Shown in pieces: positions 370-63,692 of a stretch of 64,000 nucleotides of DNA; position 1 is the stretch's first letter; each line of letters opens with the position of its first letter. Location: the IMG/VR virus record IMGVR_UViG_3300037258_000283, positions 1-64,000 of that record; one strand, given 5' to 3'. This DNA is from a virus. The translations under genes and the position numbers were made by a program. The notes beneath the pieces are model-generated. The model was not told the origin of the DNA. It ran no database searches and saw only the letters and a list, made by a program, of their open reading frames with translations.

Positions 370-666
370 TCACCATCGACGTGACGACACGACCGGAACA
401 GGCGCGGCACCTTTGCCCTTGCGACTGTTGCACCGCTTGTGTGCAGGTCGCAGGTTGGACAGGTCGTACGGATCACCGCCTGCGGACAGCGGCACGACGT
501 GGTCCACGGTGTAGGACATGGGTCCGTGATGGTGCAGCGAGAGGTCAATGTCCTTCGCGCATATCCAGCAGACAGCGGGCATGGTCGCCTTCACCGCTGC
601 CACGGTCTTGTCCCAGCGACCGCCACGCCGTCCGGCGTTGCGGGCCGACACCCCTCGCATGATCAT
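370..666 (-). CDS. HNH endonuclease
   Basis: A protein of about 98 residues with a classic HNH fold. A first CxxC pair (CWICAKD) is followed by VDHVVPLSAGGDP, then LSNLRPAHKRCNSRKGKG, giving the His-Asn-His catalytic set and a partial zinc site. Small HNH proteins like this commonly assist cos cleavage and packaging beside the terminase of HK97-type phages, and others act in mobility. Here it lies at the far end from the terminase, so a packaging role would need the genome to be circular or joined at these ends. The start is uncertain: GTG 669, ATG 666 and ATG 660 are all in frame. AGGAAG lies 5 bases before ATG 666, which is why it is preferred. Confidence 0.85.
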   Translation of the reverse strand: MIMRGVSARNAGRRGGRWDKTVAAVKATMPAVCWICAKDIDLSLHHHGPMSYTVDHVVPLSAGGDPYDLSNLRPAHKRCNSRKGKGAAPVPVVSSRRW

Positions 667-2413: not shown

Positions 2414-2454
2414 GCGTTCCTCCGCTGATCCGGGGTCCGGGGATGTCCCGGAGC

Positions 2455-2479
2455 GCACGCCTACCCAGGATAGGCGTGC
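2455..2479 (-). terminator. 9-bp hairpin between two leftward genes
   Basis: GCACGCCTA (2455-2463) pairs perfectly with TAGGCGTGC (2471-2479) across a 7-base loop. It lies between the end of the RuvC-like gene and the next start. There is no U tract, so it may be a factor-assisted terminator or an mRNA processing structure. Confidence 0.5.
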
Positions 2480-2533
2480 GGGATGGGCACTCGTGCGTAT
2501 GAGCGCAGGTGGGAGCGATCTTTTACCGTGGTT

Positions 2534-3019
2534 TCACCCGGCGGACGGCCATTCGACCTTGTCCAGGTACGCGCGCTGTGCCTGCGGCACCGAGAACTCG
2601 GGTTCGCCGTAGTGGTCCAGCGCACACCAGCGCAGCCACGCGGCATCGGCCTGGTTGTCGTCCGTGAACTCGGTCCCGGACCGCTTGTACGCGGCCAGGA
2701 TCATGGCGGCCTTGTCCGCGTTCCCCCGGCCGGTGGCGTACGCCTTCAGCGTGGCCGGGCTGACGATCACGTACGGGATGCCCGCGTCCATCAGGGCCGT
2801 GCGCACGGCCCCGTGCACCATGGCGATGATCTGCCCGGTGTTTCCGAGGAACCGGCCCATGCCCTCGATCACCGCCAGGTCCGCCACCGGCAGCGCCGCA
2901 ACGATCTGCAGCAGCCGCCGGTCACCGTGCTTCGCGTTCGTCCTGATCGTGCAGGTGGTGCCGTCCGGCAGTGCGACACCGGTAGCGGTCAGAGACAGGT
3001 CAAGTCCAGCAATCTTCAT
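2534..3019 (-). CDS. RuvC-like Holliday junction resolvase
   Basis: 161 residues with the RNase H-like plan of RuvC. The first acidic residue is in KIAGLDLSLTATG, the second in LAVIEGMG, and the last pair is in the DDNQADAAWL region. It would cut branched DNA made during replication and recombination before packaging. It is encoded with the DNA polymerase and primase in the leftward replication arm. The ATG at 3019 follows a copy of the shared CAGGAACGAGGAACC sequence at 3025-3039, so the start is well supported. Confidence 0.88.
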   Translation of the reverse strand: MKIAGLDLSLTATGVALPDGTTCTIRTNAKHGDRRLLQIVAALPVADLAVIEGMGRFLGNTGQIIAMVHGAVRTALMDAGIPYVIVSPATLKAYATGRGNADKAAMILAAYKRSGTEFTDDNQADAAWLRWCALDHYGEPEFSVPQAQRAYLDKVEWPSAG

Positions 3020-3024
3020 GGTGC

Positions 3025-3039
3025 GGTTCCTCGTTCCTG
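3025..3039 (-). promoter_or_regulatory. Start-associated sequence (exact copy)
   Basis: CAGGAACGAGGAACC read leftward, just upstream of the RuvC-like start. The GAGGA core can act as ribosome binding site, but the match extends well beyond it. Confidence 0.75.
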
Positions 3040-3066
3040 GATCGTTTTCCGGGGCTGTTCAATCGA

Positions 3067-3303
3067 TCACGTGCTGTCGTACTCCGCGCAGAACCCGGCA
3101 TGGACGACGAAGCTGTTCTTCGCCTCCCACAGTGACCGCAGACCGGCCGTCAGCTCCATGCCGTCGGCCAGGTTGTCGATCATCAGCTGCGCCAGGTCGT
3201 GGCACGGCCTGCTGACCTCCCGCAGATGCTCTGGCAGGTGCTCGTAGGCGAACATCGGCTCGAAGTGCCGCGTCTCGGGATGGCGGTCCGGTGCGATGAT
3301 CAC
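3067..3303 (-). CDS. Hypothetical protein
   Basis: 78 residues, not recognised. It starts with GTG at 3303 in a GTGA overlap with the upstream gene, so the two are translationally coupled. The sequence is His- and Glu-rich (PETRHFEPMFAYEHLPEHLREV). It belongs to a run of four tightly packed leftward genes ending before the resolvase. Confidence 0.7.
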   Translation of the reverse strand: MIIAPDRHPETRHFEPMFAYEHLPEHLREVSRPCHDLAQLMIDNLADGMELTAGLRSLWEAKNSFVVHAGFCAEYDST

Positions 3304-28259: not shown

Positions 28260-28468
28260 TCCGGGTCACCTGGCGCTGGCTGGGCACCGAGTATGACAGT
28301 CCTGAGCCGCACACCACGGACGTCCGGCTGGCCGGGCGCGGCTACGTCGGCGAGATGGAGGTCCGGGAACTGGTGGCCGTGGCCGCTACCGGCCGCCGGG
28401 AGGACGCGCAGTACCTGGCCATCACCGGTGTGGGGCGCACCCCGCTGGACGAGAGGGACGGACGGTGA
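28256..28468 (+). CDS. Hypothetical protein, likely paralogue of the gene before
   Basis: 70 residues. MIRVTWRWLGTEYDSPEPHT starts it, then ELVAVAATGRREDAQYLAIT. Order of features matches the gene at 28,002 (W-x-x-G-T-E, HTT, VAATG/LAATGG). Starts in an ATGA overlap. Confidence 0.7.
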   Translation: MIRVTWRWLGTEYDSPEPHTTDVRLAGRGYVGEMEVRELVAVAATGRREDAQYLAITGVGRTPLDERDGR

Positions 28469-28776
28469 TACACACCCTGCTCCACGTGCTGGGCATGGAC
28501 AACGGGAGCGGACCCTTCTACCTGGCCCTGTCCGGATGGATGGGCCTGCTGGGCTTCATCGGGGTCATCTGGACGACCCTGCGGAAGTACAACTGCGAGG
28601 TGCACGGCTGCCCGCGTATCGGCCGCCACGGCACAGCGGCGGGGCACACGGTCTGCCGCAGGCACCATCCGGACGGGGCACCGACGCACGCGCACATCCT
28701 GCGCGCGCACCGTGCCGCCGTCCGGGCCAGGGAAAGCGCCACGGACGCGGTGCTTCCCACCGACCCGGACGCGTAG
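28465..28776 (+). CDS. Membrane-anchored Cys/His protein
   Basis: 103 residues from GTG 28465. One hydrophobic helix (FYLALSGWMGLLGFIGVIW) is followed by CEVHGCPRIGRHG and CRRHHPDG, a probable metal site, and a basic helical end. The CxxxGC...C..H order recalls the fingers in the HNH protein at 62-63 kb, but as a single copy. Function unknown. Confidence 0.68.
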   Translation: MIHTLLHVLGMDNGSGPFYLALSGWMGLLGFIGVIWTTLRKYNCEVHGCPRIGRHGTAAGHTVCRRHHPDGAPTHAHILRAHRAAVRARESATDAVLPTDPDA

Positions 28777-58781: not shown

Positions 58782-59083
58782 TCGCTGTGCCGTTCATGGC
58801 CGGTGCGCCGCCGGGTGCTCTGCCGCCGGGGCGCGCTCTTGCCGCCGCCGACGCGCTTCGCGGCCAGTTCGTCGTACGCCGACCGCTCGCCGTCGGCCGG
58901 GAGGCTGTTCAGTTCGTCCAGGATCTTGGTCAGCCGCAGCACCAGGGAGGACATGTCCACCCCGGCCGTGGCCGTGCTGATCATGTCGGCCACCCGGTCG
59001 CGCAGTGCCTCCAGCTGCTGCCGCCGGGTGCCGGTGGCGATGATCGTGCAGAACTCCGCCGGGGTCAGCCTCTTTATCGTCAC
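58778..59083 (-). CDS. Probable terminase small subunit
   Basis: 101 residues. A helical start (RLTPAEFCTIIATGTRRQQL, EALRDRVADMISTATAGVDM) and a basic tail (GGGKSAPRRQSTRRRTG) suit a DNA-recognising small subunit. The overlap with the large subunit gene supports it. No clear family match. Confidence 0.7.
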   Translation of the reverse strand: MTIKRLTPAEFCTIIATGTRRQQLEALRDRVADMISTATAGVDMSSLVLRLTKILDELNSLPADGERSAYDELAAKRVGGGKSAPRRQSTRRRTGHERHSE

Positions 59084-60363
59084 GGTGACGTCACCAGGTC
59101 CTTCGTCGCGGTCGTGGTCCGGTCCTCCGCCGCCACGGTGGTGGTGCGGTCCTCCGCCGCCACGTACGTGGTCCGGTCCTCCGGGGTGACCACCGAGACC
59201 CGTGGACCGACCACCCGGGTCTCACTGACGGAGTCCAGGGACGGGGCGAGCGCCGCCGCGTAGGCGATTCCGTAGACCGTCGCCGTGGCCTGGGACGTCA
59301 TGGTGGCGGCGGGCAGTTGCGCGACGAAGACGCCGGGGGCGTTCACGAAGCCGGTCAGCTTGGTGAAGCTCTCCAGGCCGGTGCCGGGATCGATCAGCGC
59401 ACCGGTGACCTTGACCGTGGCCGGCAAGGTGGTGTACGCCTTCAGCGCGCCGTCGTCGGGATCATTCAGCGCCCCGAGGACGGTGACAGCCGCCTGGCCG
59501 GTCATCACCGGCTTCAGCGCGCCGTCGTCGGGATCGAGCATCGCACCGGTGACGGTGGCCGTGGCCTGGGACGTCACCACCGGCTTCAGCGCGCCGTCGT
59601 CGGGATCGATCAGCGTACCGGTGACCGTGACCGTGGTCTGGCCGGTGGTGGACGACTCCAGGCCGGTCCCGGGGTCGTGCAGGACCCCGGTGGTGGACAC
59701 CGTGGCGCTGGAGGTCATGGAGACGTCCAGGGAACTGTCCACCGGGTCGTTCATCGCACCGAGGACATCGACCTCACCGGCCGTGGTGCAGTCGGCCTGG
59801 AGGGCGTCCGCCGCCAGGAAGTCGGTCACGTGGACTTCGAAGAACGCACCGGCCGCCGGGGCTTCGGCCAGCAGGTCCAGTTCCAGGTACCCGGTTACGT
59901 ACGTGTACGGCGCGAAGTTCTCCGCGTCCAGGTCCGCGCCGATGACCGTGGCCGTGGCGGAGGCCGTGGTGAACGGTTCCAGGCCGGTGCCGGGATCGTT
60001 CAGGGCTCCGGTGACCGTGGCCGTGGCCGCCGTCGTGGTGAACGACTCCAGGCCGGTGCCGGGATCATTCAGCGCACCGGTGACCTTGACCGTGGTCTGG
60101 CCGGTGGTGAACGACTCCAGACCGGTGCCGGGATCGAGCATCGCACCGGTGACCGTCACGGTTGCGCTGGAGGTCATCGTGACGCACAGGGAGCTGTCCG
60201 CCGGATTGTTCAGCGCACCGAGGACCGTGACGGCCACCTGGCCGGTGGTGAACGATTCCAGACCGGTGCCGGGATCGTTCAGCGCACCGGTGACCGGGAC
60301 AGCCGGAATGACCGGGACGTCGATGACCGGGCGGTTCGGGAACCCGCGTCCTAGCCTGGCCAC
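59080..60363 (-). CDS. Tandem beta-repeat protein
   Basis: 427 residues from GTG 60363. About eleven repeats of 25-31 residues share TVTGAL-DPGTGLESFTTGQ or the variant NPDDGALKPVVTSQA. A gap at 150-215 has a different stretch (YVTGYLELDLLAEAPAAGAF). The end has EDRTT three times. Repeats are nearly identical at places, so they should recombine easily. It may be a virion surface or adhesion protein. It is coupled to the small terminase gene. Confidence 0.72.
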   Translation of the reverse strand: MARLGRGFPNRPVIDVPVIPAVPVTGALNDPGTGLESFTTGQVAVTVLGALNNPADSSLCVTMTSSATVTVTGAMLDPGTGLESFTTGQTTVKVTGALNDPGTGLESFTTTAATATVTGALNDPGTGLEPFTTASATATVIGADLDAENFAPYTYVTGYLELDLLAEAPAAGAFFEVHVTDFLAADALQADCTTAGEVDVLGAMNDPVDSSLDVSMTSSATVSTTGVLHDPGTGLESSTTGQTTVTVTGTLIDPDDGALKPVVTSQATATVTGAMLDPDDGALKPVMTGQAAVTVLGALNDPDDGALKAYTTLPATVKVTGALIDPGTGLESFTKLTGFVNAPGVFVAQLPAATMTSQATATVYGIAYAAALAPSLDSVSETRVVGPRVSVVTPEDRTTYVAAEDRTTTVAAEDRTTTATKDLVTSP

Positions 60364-60397: not shown

Positions 60398-60907
60398 TCA
60401 GCAGAGTTCGAAGCAGACGTAGCAGAGCACGTTGGCCGTGACGCCCGTCTTGATCCTCAGCTGGAGGAACTTGGACGGTGCCACGACGAAGTCCCGGCCC
60501 AACGGGAACTGCTTCTCATAGTGCTCCGCCGGGTCCAGCCCGCAGGCCGCGAACTGGCGATCCGTGGTCGTGGTCGTGATCCCGGTGACGCCGTACCCAC
60601 ACGTGGTGGTGGACATGGTCAGTGGACAGGCCGTGGTGTCGTCCCCGGTCGGGGTGATCGTGGAGGTGCTGTGCGCGCTCGTACAGGAGGTCGCTGTTGC
60701 CGCCTGGGCAAGCGTCGCCAGAGTCTTGGCCCCTCCGGCAGCACCGAACCCACAGACACCCCATTCGATGATCCGCAGTCGCCCCGTGGACGGGGTGGCG
60801 ATCTGTATAGCCACGACGGCCGTACCCGAGGTGATAGACGTGCCGGATGCCATCACCCCGGTGGTGGCGTCCACCAGGCCGTTGTACGCCATGTACTGAG
60901 CGCTCAT
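60398..60907 (-). CDS. Cys-rich structural hypothetical protein
   Basis: 169 residues, Thr/Ser-rich, nine cysteines (WGVCGFG, TSCTSAH, TACPLTMSTTTCGYG, FAACGLD, VLCYVCFELC). Beta-rich (VVAIQIATPSTGRLRIIEWG). Possibly a minor head or surface protein stabilised by disulfides after release. Not recognised. Confidence 0.7.
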   Translation of the reverse strand: MSAQYMAYNGLVDATTGVMASGTSITSGTAVVAIQIATPSTGRLRIIEWGVCGFGAAGGAKTLATLAQAATATSCTSAHSTSTITPTGDDTTACPLTMSTTTCGYGVTGITTTTTDRQFAACGLDPAEHYEKQFPLGRDFVVAPSKFLQLRIKTGVTANVLCYVCFELC

Positions 60908-60910
60908 GGG

Positions 60911-61261
60911 TCACGACCCCGCGTACACGAGTGCGTCGTTCAGGTCCGCTTCCGCGTCCCAGACCAGGTAGATGTCCACACTGATCGGAGAGCCACCCGT
61001 CAGCGTGTAGTAGATCGGCAACTGGCGGACACCGCCCCACGCACGTACCGGGTCCGCGTTTCCGTCACCGATCCCACTGATACCATTCACGGTCAGTTTG
61101 AACAGCTGGCTGTCCGCCGGATCGGTCGTCACCACCGTGGACAGGAAAGGGACGGGGATGCTGTCGGTGGCTTCGGTGAACACGGACTCCGCAGGTATAT
61201 CAAGGGTCCGCAATCCACTGGTGTCGATCGTCACCGTTCCGTACAGAATTCCAGACGACAT
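60911..61261 (-). CDS. Beta-rich structural hypothetical protein
   Basis: 116 residues. ILYGTVTIDTSGLRTLDIPA then DSQLFKLTVNGISGIGDGNA and ISVDIYLVWDAEADLNDALV. It looks like one beta-sandwich. It lies among other small structural genes upstream of terminase. Confidence 0.7.
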   Translation of the reverse strand: MSSGILYGTVTIDTSGLRTLDIPAESVFTEATDSIPVPFLSTVVTTDPADSQLFKLTVNGISGIGDGNADPVRAWGGVRQLPIYYTLTGGSPISVDIYLVWDAEADLNDALVYAGS

Positions 61262-61277
61262 GACTGCTACCTCTCTT

Positions 61278-61541
61278 CTACGCCGAAGCGCCGTAGGCCA
61301 GGACGTACCCGGCGTCTCCGTTGGCTCCGGCGGGGATCGTAATGACGTTCCCGGACACGGATACGCTGAGCCCGGCCACGACCGTGGTCCCCAGCAGGAC
61401 CGCCCGCTTCAGCACGTTGAACTGCTGGCTGGTGTCAAAGGTATCCCCGGCGGTGACCCCGTCCAGGGCGTAGAGCACCGTCCGGGCGGACGCGTTGTCC
61501 GACCACATTTGCTTCACGCGGGTGCCGTCCAGTACGGCCAT
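61278..61541 (-). CDS. Beta-rich structural hypothetical protein
   Basis: 87 residues from ATG 61541 (AGGGAGTGG upstream). RTVLYALDGVTAGDTFDTSQ and VVAGLSVSVSGNVITIPAGA. Probable small structural protein. Not recognised. Confidence 0.7.
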   Translation of the reverse strand: MAVLDGTRVKQMWSDNASARTVLYALDGVTAGDTFDTSQQFNVLKRAVLLGTTVVAGLSVSVSGNVITIPAGANGDAGYVLAYGASA

Positions 61542-61552
61542 TGATCCACTCC

Positions 61553-62101
61553 CTACCACGACGCGGCCCGGTTGACCGCTTGATTGATACTGCAGGTGTT
61601 CGGCGGCCCCGCACCCGAGGACGGGGTGTACGGCGGTCCGAAGTAGAGTTCATCGACCCAGAAGACCTGGCCCGACGTAGCGTTCAGCATGACCGGCTGG
61701 GGCACCGCCGCGTTGGTCGTGGCCGGGGCCACGCCGGAGGTGGTGATGAACGTCCAGGCGTTCGGGGTGAGCGGCAAATTCGTGACCTGGTAGTAATTTT
61801 TGTAGGTGGCACCGACGTACCAGTCCACCTCCGCGCCGCCGGTCACACCGGATGACGTCGTGTACACGTAGTAGGACAGCTGGTACGTCTGCCCGGCCGT
61901 GATCGCCGGCTTCGTGCCGCCGAAGGTGACCGCCACCAGTCCCGTGGCCGTGGCCGTGCACTTCATGGAGTGCGTGCCGTCGATGGCACGGGTGGTGTCC
62001 TGGACCAGGGTCAGGTTCGTGCCGGTGCCGGCCCAGTTGCCCAGGCTGGTCTCTACCGATTCGTCGTTGTAGACGAACAGGTTGCCCGCCAGTCCCGCCA
62101 T
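61553..62101 (-). CDS. Carbohydrate-binding-module-like protein
   Basis: 182 residues with a jelly-roll look: VETSLGNWAGTGTNLTLVQD, GTHSMKCTATATGLVAVTFG, TYQLSYYVYTTSSGVTGGAE, WTFITTSGVAPA and VFWVDELYFG. This order is that of CBM4/9-type sugar binders. It may serve in host-surface binding on the virion. Family call is by pattern. Confidence 0.72.
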   Translation of the reverse strand: MAGLAGNLFVYNDESVETSLGNWAGTGTNLTLVQDTTRAIDGTHSMKCTATATGLVAVTFGGTKPAITAGQTYQLSYYVYTTSSGVTGGAEVDWYVGATYKNYYQVTNLPLTPNAWTFITTSGVAPATTNAAVPQPVMLNATSGQVFWVDELYFGPPYTPSSGAGPPNTCSINQAVNRAASW

Positions 62102-62144: not shown

Positions 62145-63239
62145 TCAGTCGGCGATGGGTTCGGCAGAGATGTTGACGGACCCGCAGTCCAGGCACCGGT
62201 GGACGACGCCCTTCCCATGGCGACCGGTCCGGAGCTGGAGGTTCTCCGGACGGTTGTCCAGAGTGTCGCCATTGATGTGGTGAACCGTCTCGTACGACTC
62301 TAGCGGCCTACCGATCATCTGCTCCATGACCTCGCGATGCTCCGCTACCGCAACCCCGTTGCGCTTGAACTTCCGGTAGCCTCCGACGACGGCCCCCGAG
62401 CCGTCAGGGGCACGTGACGATTCAACCGCCCCGGGGTCGCCGAACTGCCTCCACCGCTCATAGTGCATCTTGCAGTAATCCCGAGCGGTAGACCGCTTAC
62501 TGCACCCGTTCACTTGACACGTTTTCTGCTTCGCGGCGTCTGTGGGGTTTACGCGGCACCATGCCTGGTAGTGCTTTCCGCACATTCCCCGGGTGAGCGA
62601 CGACTGGCCGCACCCCTCCATGGAGCAGACCGCCCCGGGAAACTCACCGCGGTATTTGGCAGCGGCGTAATGACTCCGGCAATACCCCCGAACCTGGGAG
62701 TCTTTGTCGCAATCCGGATGGGCACACGACTCCCGTGTAACCTTTCGCGCCGGAATGGATGCGCGGGGGCTCCCGTGCTTTTTCTGCCGCTCATAGTGCA
62801 TAGCACACAGCCCCTTGGATCTGTGCGGCAACCCACAGCCCTCCACCTCGCACACAGTGCGCCCCACCCGACGAAGTGGAACACCTGCCTGTACATCACC
62901 ATCCTTGCGAAGGCGCTGATAGTGCGCCTGGCACAGACCATTGCCGAAGTTGCCTCGATCGCACCCGTCCACGGTGCACGGACCGCCCCGGGTGGTGGTG
63001 ACCGGCATGTCCGAATGCACCGATCCACGAAGGTGACGCTGGTAGTGCGCAGCGCACATGTTGCGAGCGTAGGGAGCCCTCACGCACCCGTCCACCGTGC
63101 ACACATCCTCTCGCGGGGCCATCAGAGCGCCTTCACGCTCAACGCCCCCGGACTTGCGCCATGCCTGGTAGTGCTTGGCGCACATGCCCCGAACTTTCAC
63201 GGGTGCAGTGCAACTATCGATCAAACAATTTGATTTCAT
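62145..63239 (-). CDS. HNH endonuclease with seven-finger zinc array
   Basis: 364 residues. Seven fingers of the kind C-x4-C-x8-9-C-x2-H-Y begin at residues 5, 47, 88, 130, 172, 205 and 241 (e.g. CTVDGCDRGNFGNGLCQAHY). Steps of 41-42 residues for the first four become 33-36 for the last. Then comes an HNH_3-type domain, EHREVMEQMIGRPLESYETV, HHINGDTLDNRPENLQL, at about 300-337, and a last CLDC pair. It is likely a free-standing homing endonuclease whose array reads DNA. Its DNA is less GC-rich than its neighbours, which suggests transfer. Confidence 0.88.
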   Translation of the reverse strand: MKSNCLIDSCTAPVKVRGMCAKHYQAWRKSGGVEREGALMAPREDVCTVDGCVRAPYARNMCAAHYQRHLRGSVHSDMPVTTTRGGPCTVDGCDRGNFGNGLCQAHYQRLRKDGDVQAGVPLRRVGRTVCEVEGCGLPHRSKGLCAMHYERQKKHGSPRASIPARKVTRESCAHPDCDKDSQVRGYCRSHYAAAKYRGEFPGAVCSMEGCGQSSLTRGMCGKHYQAWCRVNPTDAAKQKTCQVNGCSKRSTARDYCKMHYERWRQFGDPGAVESSRAPDGSGAVVGGYRKFKRNGVAVAEHREVMEQMIGRPLESYETVHHINGDTLDNRPENLQLRTGRHGKGVVHRCLDCGSVNISAEPIAD

Positions 63240-63266: not shown

Positions 63267-63692
63267 TCACGTACCGTCGGGCATGGTGAAACTCCCGGAA
63301 GTTATACTCACGGCAACCCCATTGCTGATCGTTGTCGTGTTCAGTTCAAGTGCCCCGCCGCCGCCGGTCGCGGTCACGGTGCCATCGAAGCAGATCGCGG
63401 TACCCGTGGAGTCGGACGCCCGGAAGAACGTGGCGGTCCCCGCCGCCACACCCGTGGTGGCGATAGGCGTCCCCTGGAGCGTGGCCACGCCCGCCGACGG
63501 GGTTCCGAACGAGGGCTTGGACAGGGTGAAGGTCGCCAGCAGGGTGTTGCCGGACAGGGCCGTGTTCGCGTTGACCGGCTGGGTGCCGGTGTAGAGCTTG
63601 ATCAGGCCGTCACCGGAACCGGCGTCCAGGAAGGTGGTCGCCTGGTTGCACATGCCGTTCCGCTGAGCAGTTGCGAGGTGAATGACAGCCAT
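63267..63692 (-). CDS. Structural hypothetical protein
   Basis: 141 residues, MAVIHLATAQRNGMCNQATT then a Gly/Thr-rich beta pattern (KLYTGTQPVNANTALSGNTL, ATFFRASDSTGTAICFDGTV). It looks like the beta-sandwich head or tail proteins often seen in actinophages. The zinc-array HNH gene sits directly after it, so it may be a homing site neighbour. Confidence 0.7.
   Translation of the reverse strand: MAVIHLATAQRNGMCNQATTFLDAGSGDGLIKLYTGTQPVNANTALSGNTLLATFTLSKPSFGTPSAGVATLQGTPIATTGVAAGTATFFRASDSTGTAICFDGTVTATGGGGALELNTTTISNGVAVSITSGSFTMPDGT

Follow-up and report, generated by a model that had tools for sequence, protein, structure and literature searches.

Homing endonucleases with repeated zinc fingers were described in 2023 for the T5orf172 enzymes, which carry CapR, DUF723, or DUF4397 fingers (PMC10448857). 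Homing by free-standing HNH genes has been established in other phages (PMC2988022; PMC3706429). In mycobacteriophages, such genes lie between structural or lysis genes and are absent from close relatives in Cluster J (PMC3706429) and Cluster S (PMC5043550). An HNH_3 domain combined with a zinc-binding part occurs in the free-standing homing endonucleases T4 Mob and those of ICP1, and an Endonuclease VII-type domain, as in F-CphI, can also serve homing (PMC6083498). A literature search, with subscription papers outside its scope, found no paper describing HNH or Endonuclease VII nucleases that carry Zf_WRKY19-type fingers in tandem.

The window analyzed here comprises 64,000 nucleotides and covers most of an IMG/VR virus record of 66,045 bp. 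On its minus strand, the ORF list and Pfam defined a gene (62145–63239) encoding a 364-aa protein with a seven-finger array and an HNH_3 nuclease. An earlier note on this DNA had described seven CxxxxC...CxxHY fingers followed by one HNH_3 domain, and this description was exact, including the steps of 42, 41, 42, 42, 33, and 36 residues between fingers. The third-position GC of the minus-strand frame was 0.73, as high as in real genes, whereas that of an overlapping plus-strand ORF was 0.61 and did not reach the level of real genes. The 364 codons contained no stop, and all 28 of 28 zinc ligands and the HNH residues were intact. The GC content of the gene (62.6%) was below the window mean (69.3%, sd 2.4) and fell within the bottom 0.6% of same-size windows, as expected of a newcomer gene.

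All seven fingers conformed to C-x4-C-x9-C-x2-H-Y, with the ligand pattern C-C-C-H, and started at aa 5, 47, 88, 130, 172, 205, and 241. By motif, they were assigned on the minus strand to 63168–63227 (finger 1, CLIDSCTAPVKVRGMCAKHY), 63042–63101 (finger 2, CTVDGCVRAPYARNMCAAHY), 62919–62978 (finger 3, CTVDGCDRGNFGNGLCQAHY), 62793–62852 (finger 4, CEVEGCGLPHRSKGLCAMHY), 62667–62726 (finger 5, CAHPDCDKDSQVRGYCRSHY), 62568–62627 (finger 6, CSMEGCGQSSLTRGMCGKHY), and 62460–62519 (finger 7, CQVNGCSKRSTARDYCKMHY). The fingers matched the Pfam family Zf_WRKY19 (PF24906; E-value of 6.5e-10, 39.1 bits against a curated cut-off of 27), with finger 5 as the best stretch. Chance formation of a seven-finger array was excluded, because none of 20,000 shuffles of the window protein contained two or more such motifs. 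A detail absent from the earlier note was a 36-nt DNA match with 89% identity between the regions of fingers 1 and 6, which suggests a putative internal duplication or conversion. Basic residues of the array outnumbered acidic residues by 45 to 23. Sequence matches to solved fingers were limited to weak ones with TFIIIA (E-value of 0.006) and GLI. Elsewhere in the window, a 103-aa plus-strand ORF (28465–28776) with a hydrophobic N-terminal stretch contained one finger-like motif, CEVHGCPRIGRHGTAAGHTVCRRHH.

The HNH_3 catalytic domain (62220–62339, minus strand; PF13392, aa 301–340) was matched with an E-value of 2.8e-10 and 40.1 bits against a curated cut-off of 24.8. It contained the complete HNH_3 motif (EHREVMEQMIGRPLESYETVHHINGDTLDNRPENLQLR), and its His and Asn residues were intact in an alignment with 31 relatives. 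Among Pfam matches to the window protein at E-values up to 1, only HNH_3 and Zf_WRKY19 were found, and no T5orf172 (GIY-YIG) domain. The protein ended with an extra C-x2-C tail (CLDCGS; CLDC at 62184–62195, minus strand), which was absent from the earlier note, and lacked the C-terminal helix GQRVxDLVxWAxEIL that is common in relatives. The same unusual C-x2-C-G-S tail occurred in the HNH protein of phage record MW202481, which was 52% identical over the HNH part. In that protein, helix-turn-helix-like repeats (weak Pfam matches below cut-offs) replaced the fingers, which points to the N-terminal part as an exchangeable aiming module.

Structural prediction of the window protein by AlphaFold2 showed a string of seven small fingers, joined to each other and to a folded HNH domain by low-confidence linkers (mean pLDDT of 78, pTM of 0.33). 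In a structural alignment, aa 280–345 weakly resembled the homing endonuclease I-PpoI (Z of 3.8, rmsd of 3.1, 63 aligned residues), and a finger pair showed weak resemblance to A20 and GATA fingers (Z of 2.3–2.9). Foldseek searches with the whole model and with the finger pair returned no significant match, including among DNA-binding structures. The helix of the finger started after the third Cys in the models, and from the ligand positions at the helix start our guess is a treble-clef or GATA-like finger. The comparison in the earlier note with a natural zinc-finger nuclease is not supported for the classical type, since the ligands are C-C-C-H rather than C2H2, none of the seven fingers fits the classical pattern C-x2-4-C-x12-H-x3-5-H, the repeat length is about 42 aa and the linkers are flexible, and no significant structural match was obtained.

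Upstream of the gene lies a virion structural protein gene (63267–63692, minus strand; phrog_3758), the product of which was 48% identical to that encoded at 1069–1494 of a distant relative, L007. The downstream neighbor (61553–62101, minus strand; phrog_16363) encodes a fiber-like protein of unknown function with a weak tail-fiber match and is not homologous to the gene in the same place in L007. Terminase and portal genes follow further downstream, with the terminase genes about 3 kb from the window gene. L007 contained homologues of the upstream virion gene and of the genes at 61278–61559 and 60398–60907, and a counterpart of 59080–60363 by repeat pattern and position, but no HNH gene. The 59080–60363 gene (minus strand) encodes a 427-aa protein of repeats such as VTGALNDPGTGLESFTTGQ and has long antisense ORFs; the repetitive protein in the same position of L007 (3007–4149) has a different repeat sequence. 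A 116-aa gene (60911–61261, minus strand) is missing from L007, where its flanking genes are adjacent. These differences in the 116-aa gene and its neighbors mark the surroundings of the HNH gene as a generally variable interval. Given this variability and the distance of L007 (about 48% identity in the flanking gene), the absence of the HNH gene there is only suggestive. A search for relatives of the downstream neighbor that might provide the exact empty site found none.

Several other features of the locus were evaluated. A 13-bp near-repeat at the insert (12 of 13 matching) was within chance, occurring in 5.8% of random segment pairs, and was rejected as a target duplication. An intron origin was likewise rejected; at Rfam gathering thresholds, the window contained only a tRNA and no intron family. 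The gene also differed from HK97 gp74-like packaging HNH genes, which are short, conserved, and located beside terminase genes, in that it encodes a 364-aa protein of the HNH_3 type, is about 3 kb from the terminase genes, and is absent in L007. A separate HNH domain (412–570, minus strand; PF01844, 41.7 bits), found in a 128-aa open frame, is possibly the resident packaging HNH of this phage.

Filled and empty sites were found for related genes in other phages. In Marvinvirus, a 753-bp insertion containing a three-finger HNH gene was located between a minor tail gene and the next gene in Corazon, MosMoris, Gattaca, JoieB, and FeliMaine. Marvin, RedRaider77, and Tesla, at 99.5% identity, had this site empty, with the junction ...TTAGGATTCTTTTGATAT / CGAAGGGG... 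The presence of an HNH insertion in MosMoris and Gattaca and its absence from Marvin are noted in PMC5043550. Huphlepuff, Clarkson, and others carried an HNH gene without fingers in this interval, and the stretch just upstream of it was diverged, as co-conversion would leave it. The HNH genes in this one interval were unrelated, being three-fingered in L221 and L222 and fingerless with a C-terminal helix-turn-helix in L215 and L220. The Marvinvirus interval, which is empty in other genomes, is a natural three-allele homing site. In Zitchvirus (Gordonia phages), an HNH gene with three fingers lay between lysin A and holin in Verity and Zipp and was missing from Tardus and APunk. In Verity and Zipp, silent changes were clustered at the lysin A end beside the insert, and the former last codons of lysin A now terminate the HNH gene. 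By genome comparison, these three-finger relatives are recent, dispensable insertions. Some finger-array nucleases, such as the L125 Endonuclease VII family, occupied a single site in every member found and may represent resident genes.

To define the family, relatives were searched for by tblastn and were found in 102 phage records, mostly of actinobacteriophages, with identities of about 33% at best across the array and as high as 52% across the HNH part. A DNA pattern of two tandem fingers matched at least 119 stretches in the viral collection, and this pattern and later searches together yielded at least 146 distinct array proteins with 2–7 fingers. Two fingers were found in at least 60 proteins, three in at least 63, four in at least 14, five in at least 6, and seven in at least 3, one of which was the window protein; these numbers vary with the search pattern and should not be read as a census. 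Finger number also varied at a single genomic site, in that L084 and L138 had seven fingers and L082 and L139, with collinear flanks, had five, without the first two. Among 89 array proteins scanned for nuclease domains, 45 had HNH_3, 13 had Endonuclease VII, 6 had HNH, and 6 had HNH_5. The same array is thus combined with nucleases of four families, and this, like the helix-turn-helix swap in MW202481, points to an exchangeable aiming module. A candidate array swap was found between L017 (5445–6131) and L252 (about 2417–3220), which by BLAST shared 76% identity in HNH_3 and had three and four unrelated fingers, respectively, and unrelated flanks. Public annotations of two members omitted the fingers. 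An out-of-frame ORF takes the place of the finger array in Gordonia phage Zipp (L225, 2510–3091), and the annotated gene of Pseudanabaena phage Pan2 leaves out three fingers (L332, about 2001–2765). The window gene is most likely an unusually long-armed member of this widespread and almost unstudied group of phage homing nucleases.

We then focused on the residues that distinguish one finger from another. In 24 distinct three-finger Endonuclease VII arrays from one shared genomic context, each finger kept its own signature; outside the ligands, the mean identity was 0.62 for orthologous fingers and 0.20 for different fingers within a protein. The earlier observation that residues differ from finger to finger is supported. 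Finger-specific positions that stood out in these arrays were +7, +9, +10, +12, +16, +21, and +25, and the same contrast in 20 other proteins, from independent families, was strongest at +12, +9, +20, +2, +16, +10, and +17. The two position profiles were correlated (rho of 0.57, p of 0.004, with positions not fully independent). In the models, the finger-specific positions mapped to the loop preceding the helix and to its first turns. Basic residues were conserved at +7, +12, +21, and +24, which would suit backbone contacts.

Finger cores were also compared between proteins with similar nucleases. Among HNH_3 pairs that were 60–70% identical, core identity was 0.25 with unrelated flanks and 0.34 with both flanks shared, against a background of 0.20. 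Among HNH_3 pairs of at least 70% identity, it was 0.23 at different sites (one pair, L017/L252) and 0.68 with both flanks shared (18 pairs). The finger residues were thus not conserved in all relatives regardless of target, and the earlier note stood in this respect. A pooled same-site test at 60–70% nuclease identity (0.25 versus 0.63) was rejected, being confounded by the large L125 family. Since its contrast shrank to 0.25 versus 0.34 within HNH_3, we relied instead on the per-position test, the only one free of family bias. A tentative reading, which we hold to be possible rather than probable, is that C3H (Zf_WRKY19-type) fingers constitute a natural modular DNA-reading code of prokaryotic viruses, in which each finger would read a few bases through +9, +10, +12, +16, +17, and +20, and two- to seven-finger arrays would be re-assembled to retarget different nucleases.

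Taken together, the window gene quite probably encodes a free-standing homing endonuclease of the phage that its fingers direct to the target, in accord with the homing-type nuclease between structural genes that the earlier note had proposed. In the proposed mechanism, the seven fingers would form a flexible beads-on-a-string arm gripping a long stretch of phage DNA, and the array would position the C-terminal HNH_3 domain. This domain would cut or nick a gene-less related phage genome at or close to the empty interval between structural genes, and repair from the carrier would copy the gene across. As the target changes, the array would gain, lose, and exchange fingers. T4 free-standing homing enzymes can cut at a distance from their own gene (PMC2988022), and the cut site therefore need not be the insertion point. 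DNA binding by the fingers, the reading of a sub-site by each of them, and homing of the window gene are our inferences; selection of the cut site is most likely the role of the fingers.

It is unlikely that the gene encodes a resident phage enzyme, either a packaging helper or a junction resolvase, with the fingers as general DNA clamps without sequence reading. L007 lacks the gene yet keeps the neighboring virion genes, the phage has a separate HNH domain at 412–570, the GC content of the gene is aberrant, and the three-finger HNH relatives are dispensable insertions. In favor of a resident enzyme, HNH genes near terminase genes can have a packaging role (Kala et al., 2014, cited in PMC9030533), and the L125 Endonuclease VII family has a single site. 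The conserved basic residues would suit a clamp, but finger-specific conservation of residues is not expected of a pure clamp. Alternatively, the fingers of a homing endonuclease might act mainly as spacers, redox switches, or RNA or protein contacts, with specificity residing elsewhere, as in I-TevI, the linker zinc finger of which sets the cleavage distance and is not the main DNA-binding part (PMC2988022; PMC10448857). The weak resemblances of the finger pair include ubiquitin-binding A20 as well as GATA, as this explanation would allow. We nevertheless consider it very unlikely, because the array is the sole candidate aiming domain in the window protein, helix-turn-helix-like domains substitute for it in one relative, and the conserved finger-specific positions lie in the pre-helix loop and the first helix turns. 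The absence of the common C-terminal helix would fit a decayed, inactive homing gene; with an uninterrupted frame, every zinc ligand and HNH residue preserved, and the alternative tail common to the MW202481 protein, decay has hardly any probability.

If each finger of such a homing endonuclease reads DNA individually, natural zinc-finger nucleases with a compact non-C2H2 finger would number in the thousands among phages. The same-site families and the filled and empty pairs provide ready target candidates, and a base code is directly testable. Artificial zinc-finger nucleases likewise join tandem fingers and one nuclease domain in one chain, but are built of C2H2 fingers, short linkers, and FokI, whereas the window protein has C3H fingers, long linkers, and HNH, with putative modular reading. 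The Cluster S protein gp49 has three fingers of the same kind as the window protein; the accessible parts of the Cluster J and Cluster S accounts describe no tandem finger arrays, of which the window protein has one of seven. ICP1 proteins have an N-terminal HNH_3 domain and one C-terminal zinc finger, whereas the window protein has the reversed order and seven fingers. The Endonuclease VII-type domain of F-CphI is also found behind finger arrays, and the window protein uses HNH_3. The T5orf172 enzymes, as phage homing genes with several small beads-on-a-string fingers, in-frame finger loss, and swapping between finger regions and nucleases (PMC10448857), are similar in these respects but have a GIY-YIG fold and a CxxC...CxC finger instead of HNH_3 and C-x4-C-x9-C-x2-H. 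Even without a code, this family extends beads-on-a-string homing nucleases from GIY-YIG to HNH and Endonuclease VII. Repeated zinc fingers on homing nucleases have already been published, for the T5orf172 group, and what is new here is a different finger on a different nuclease.
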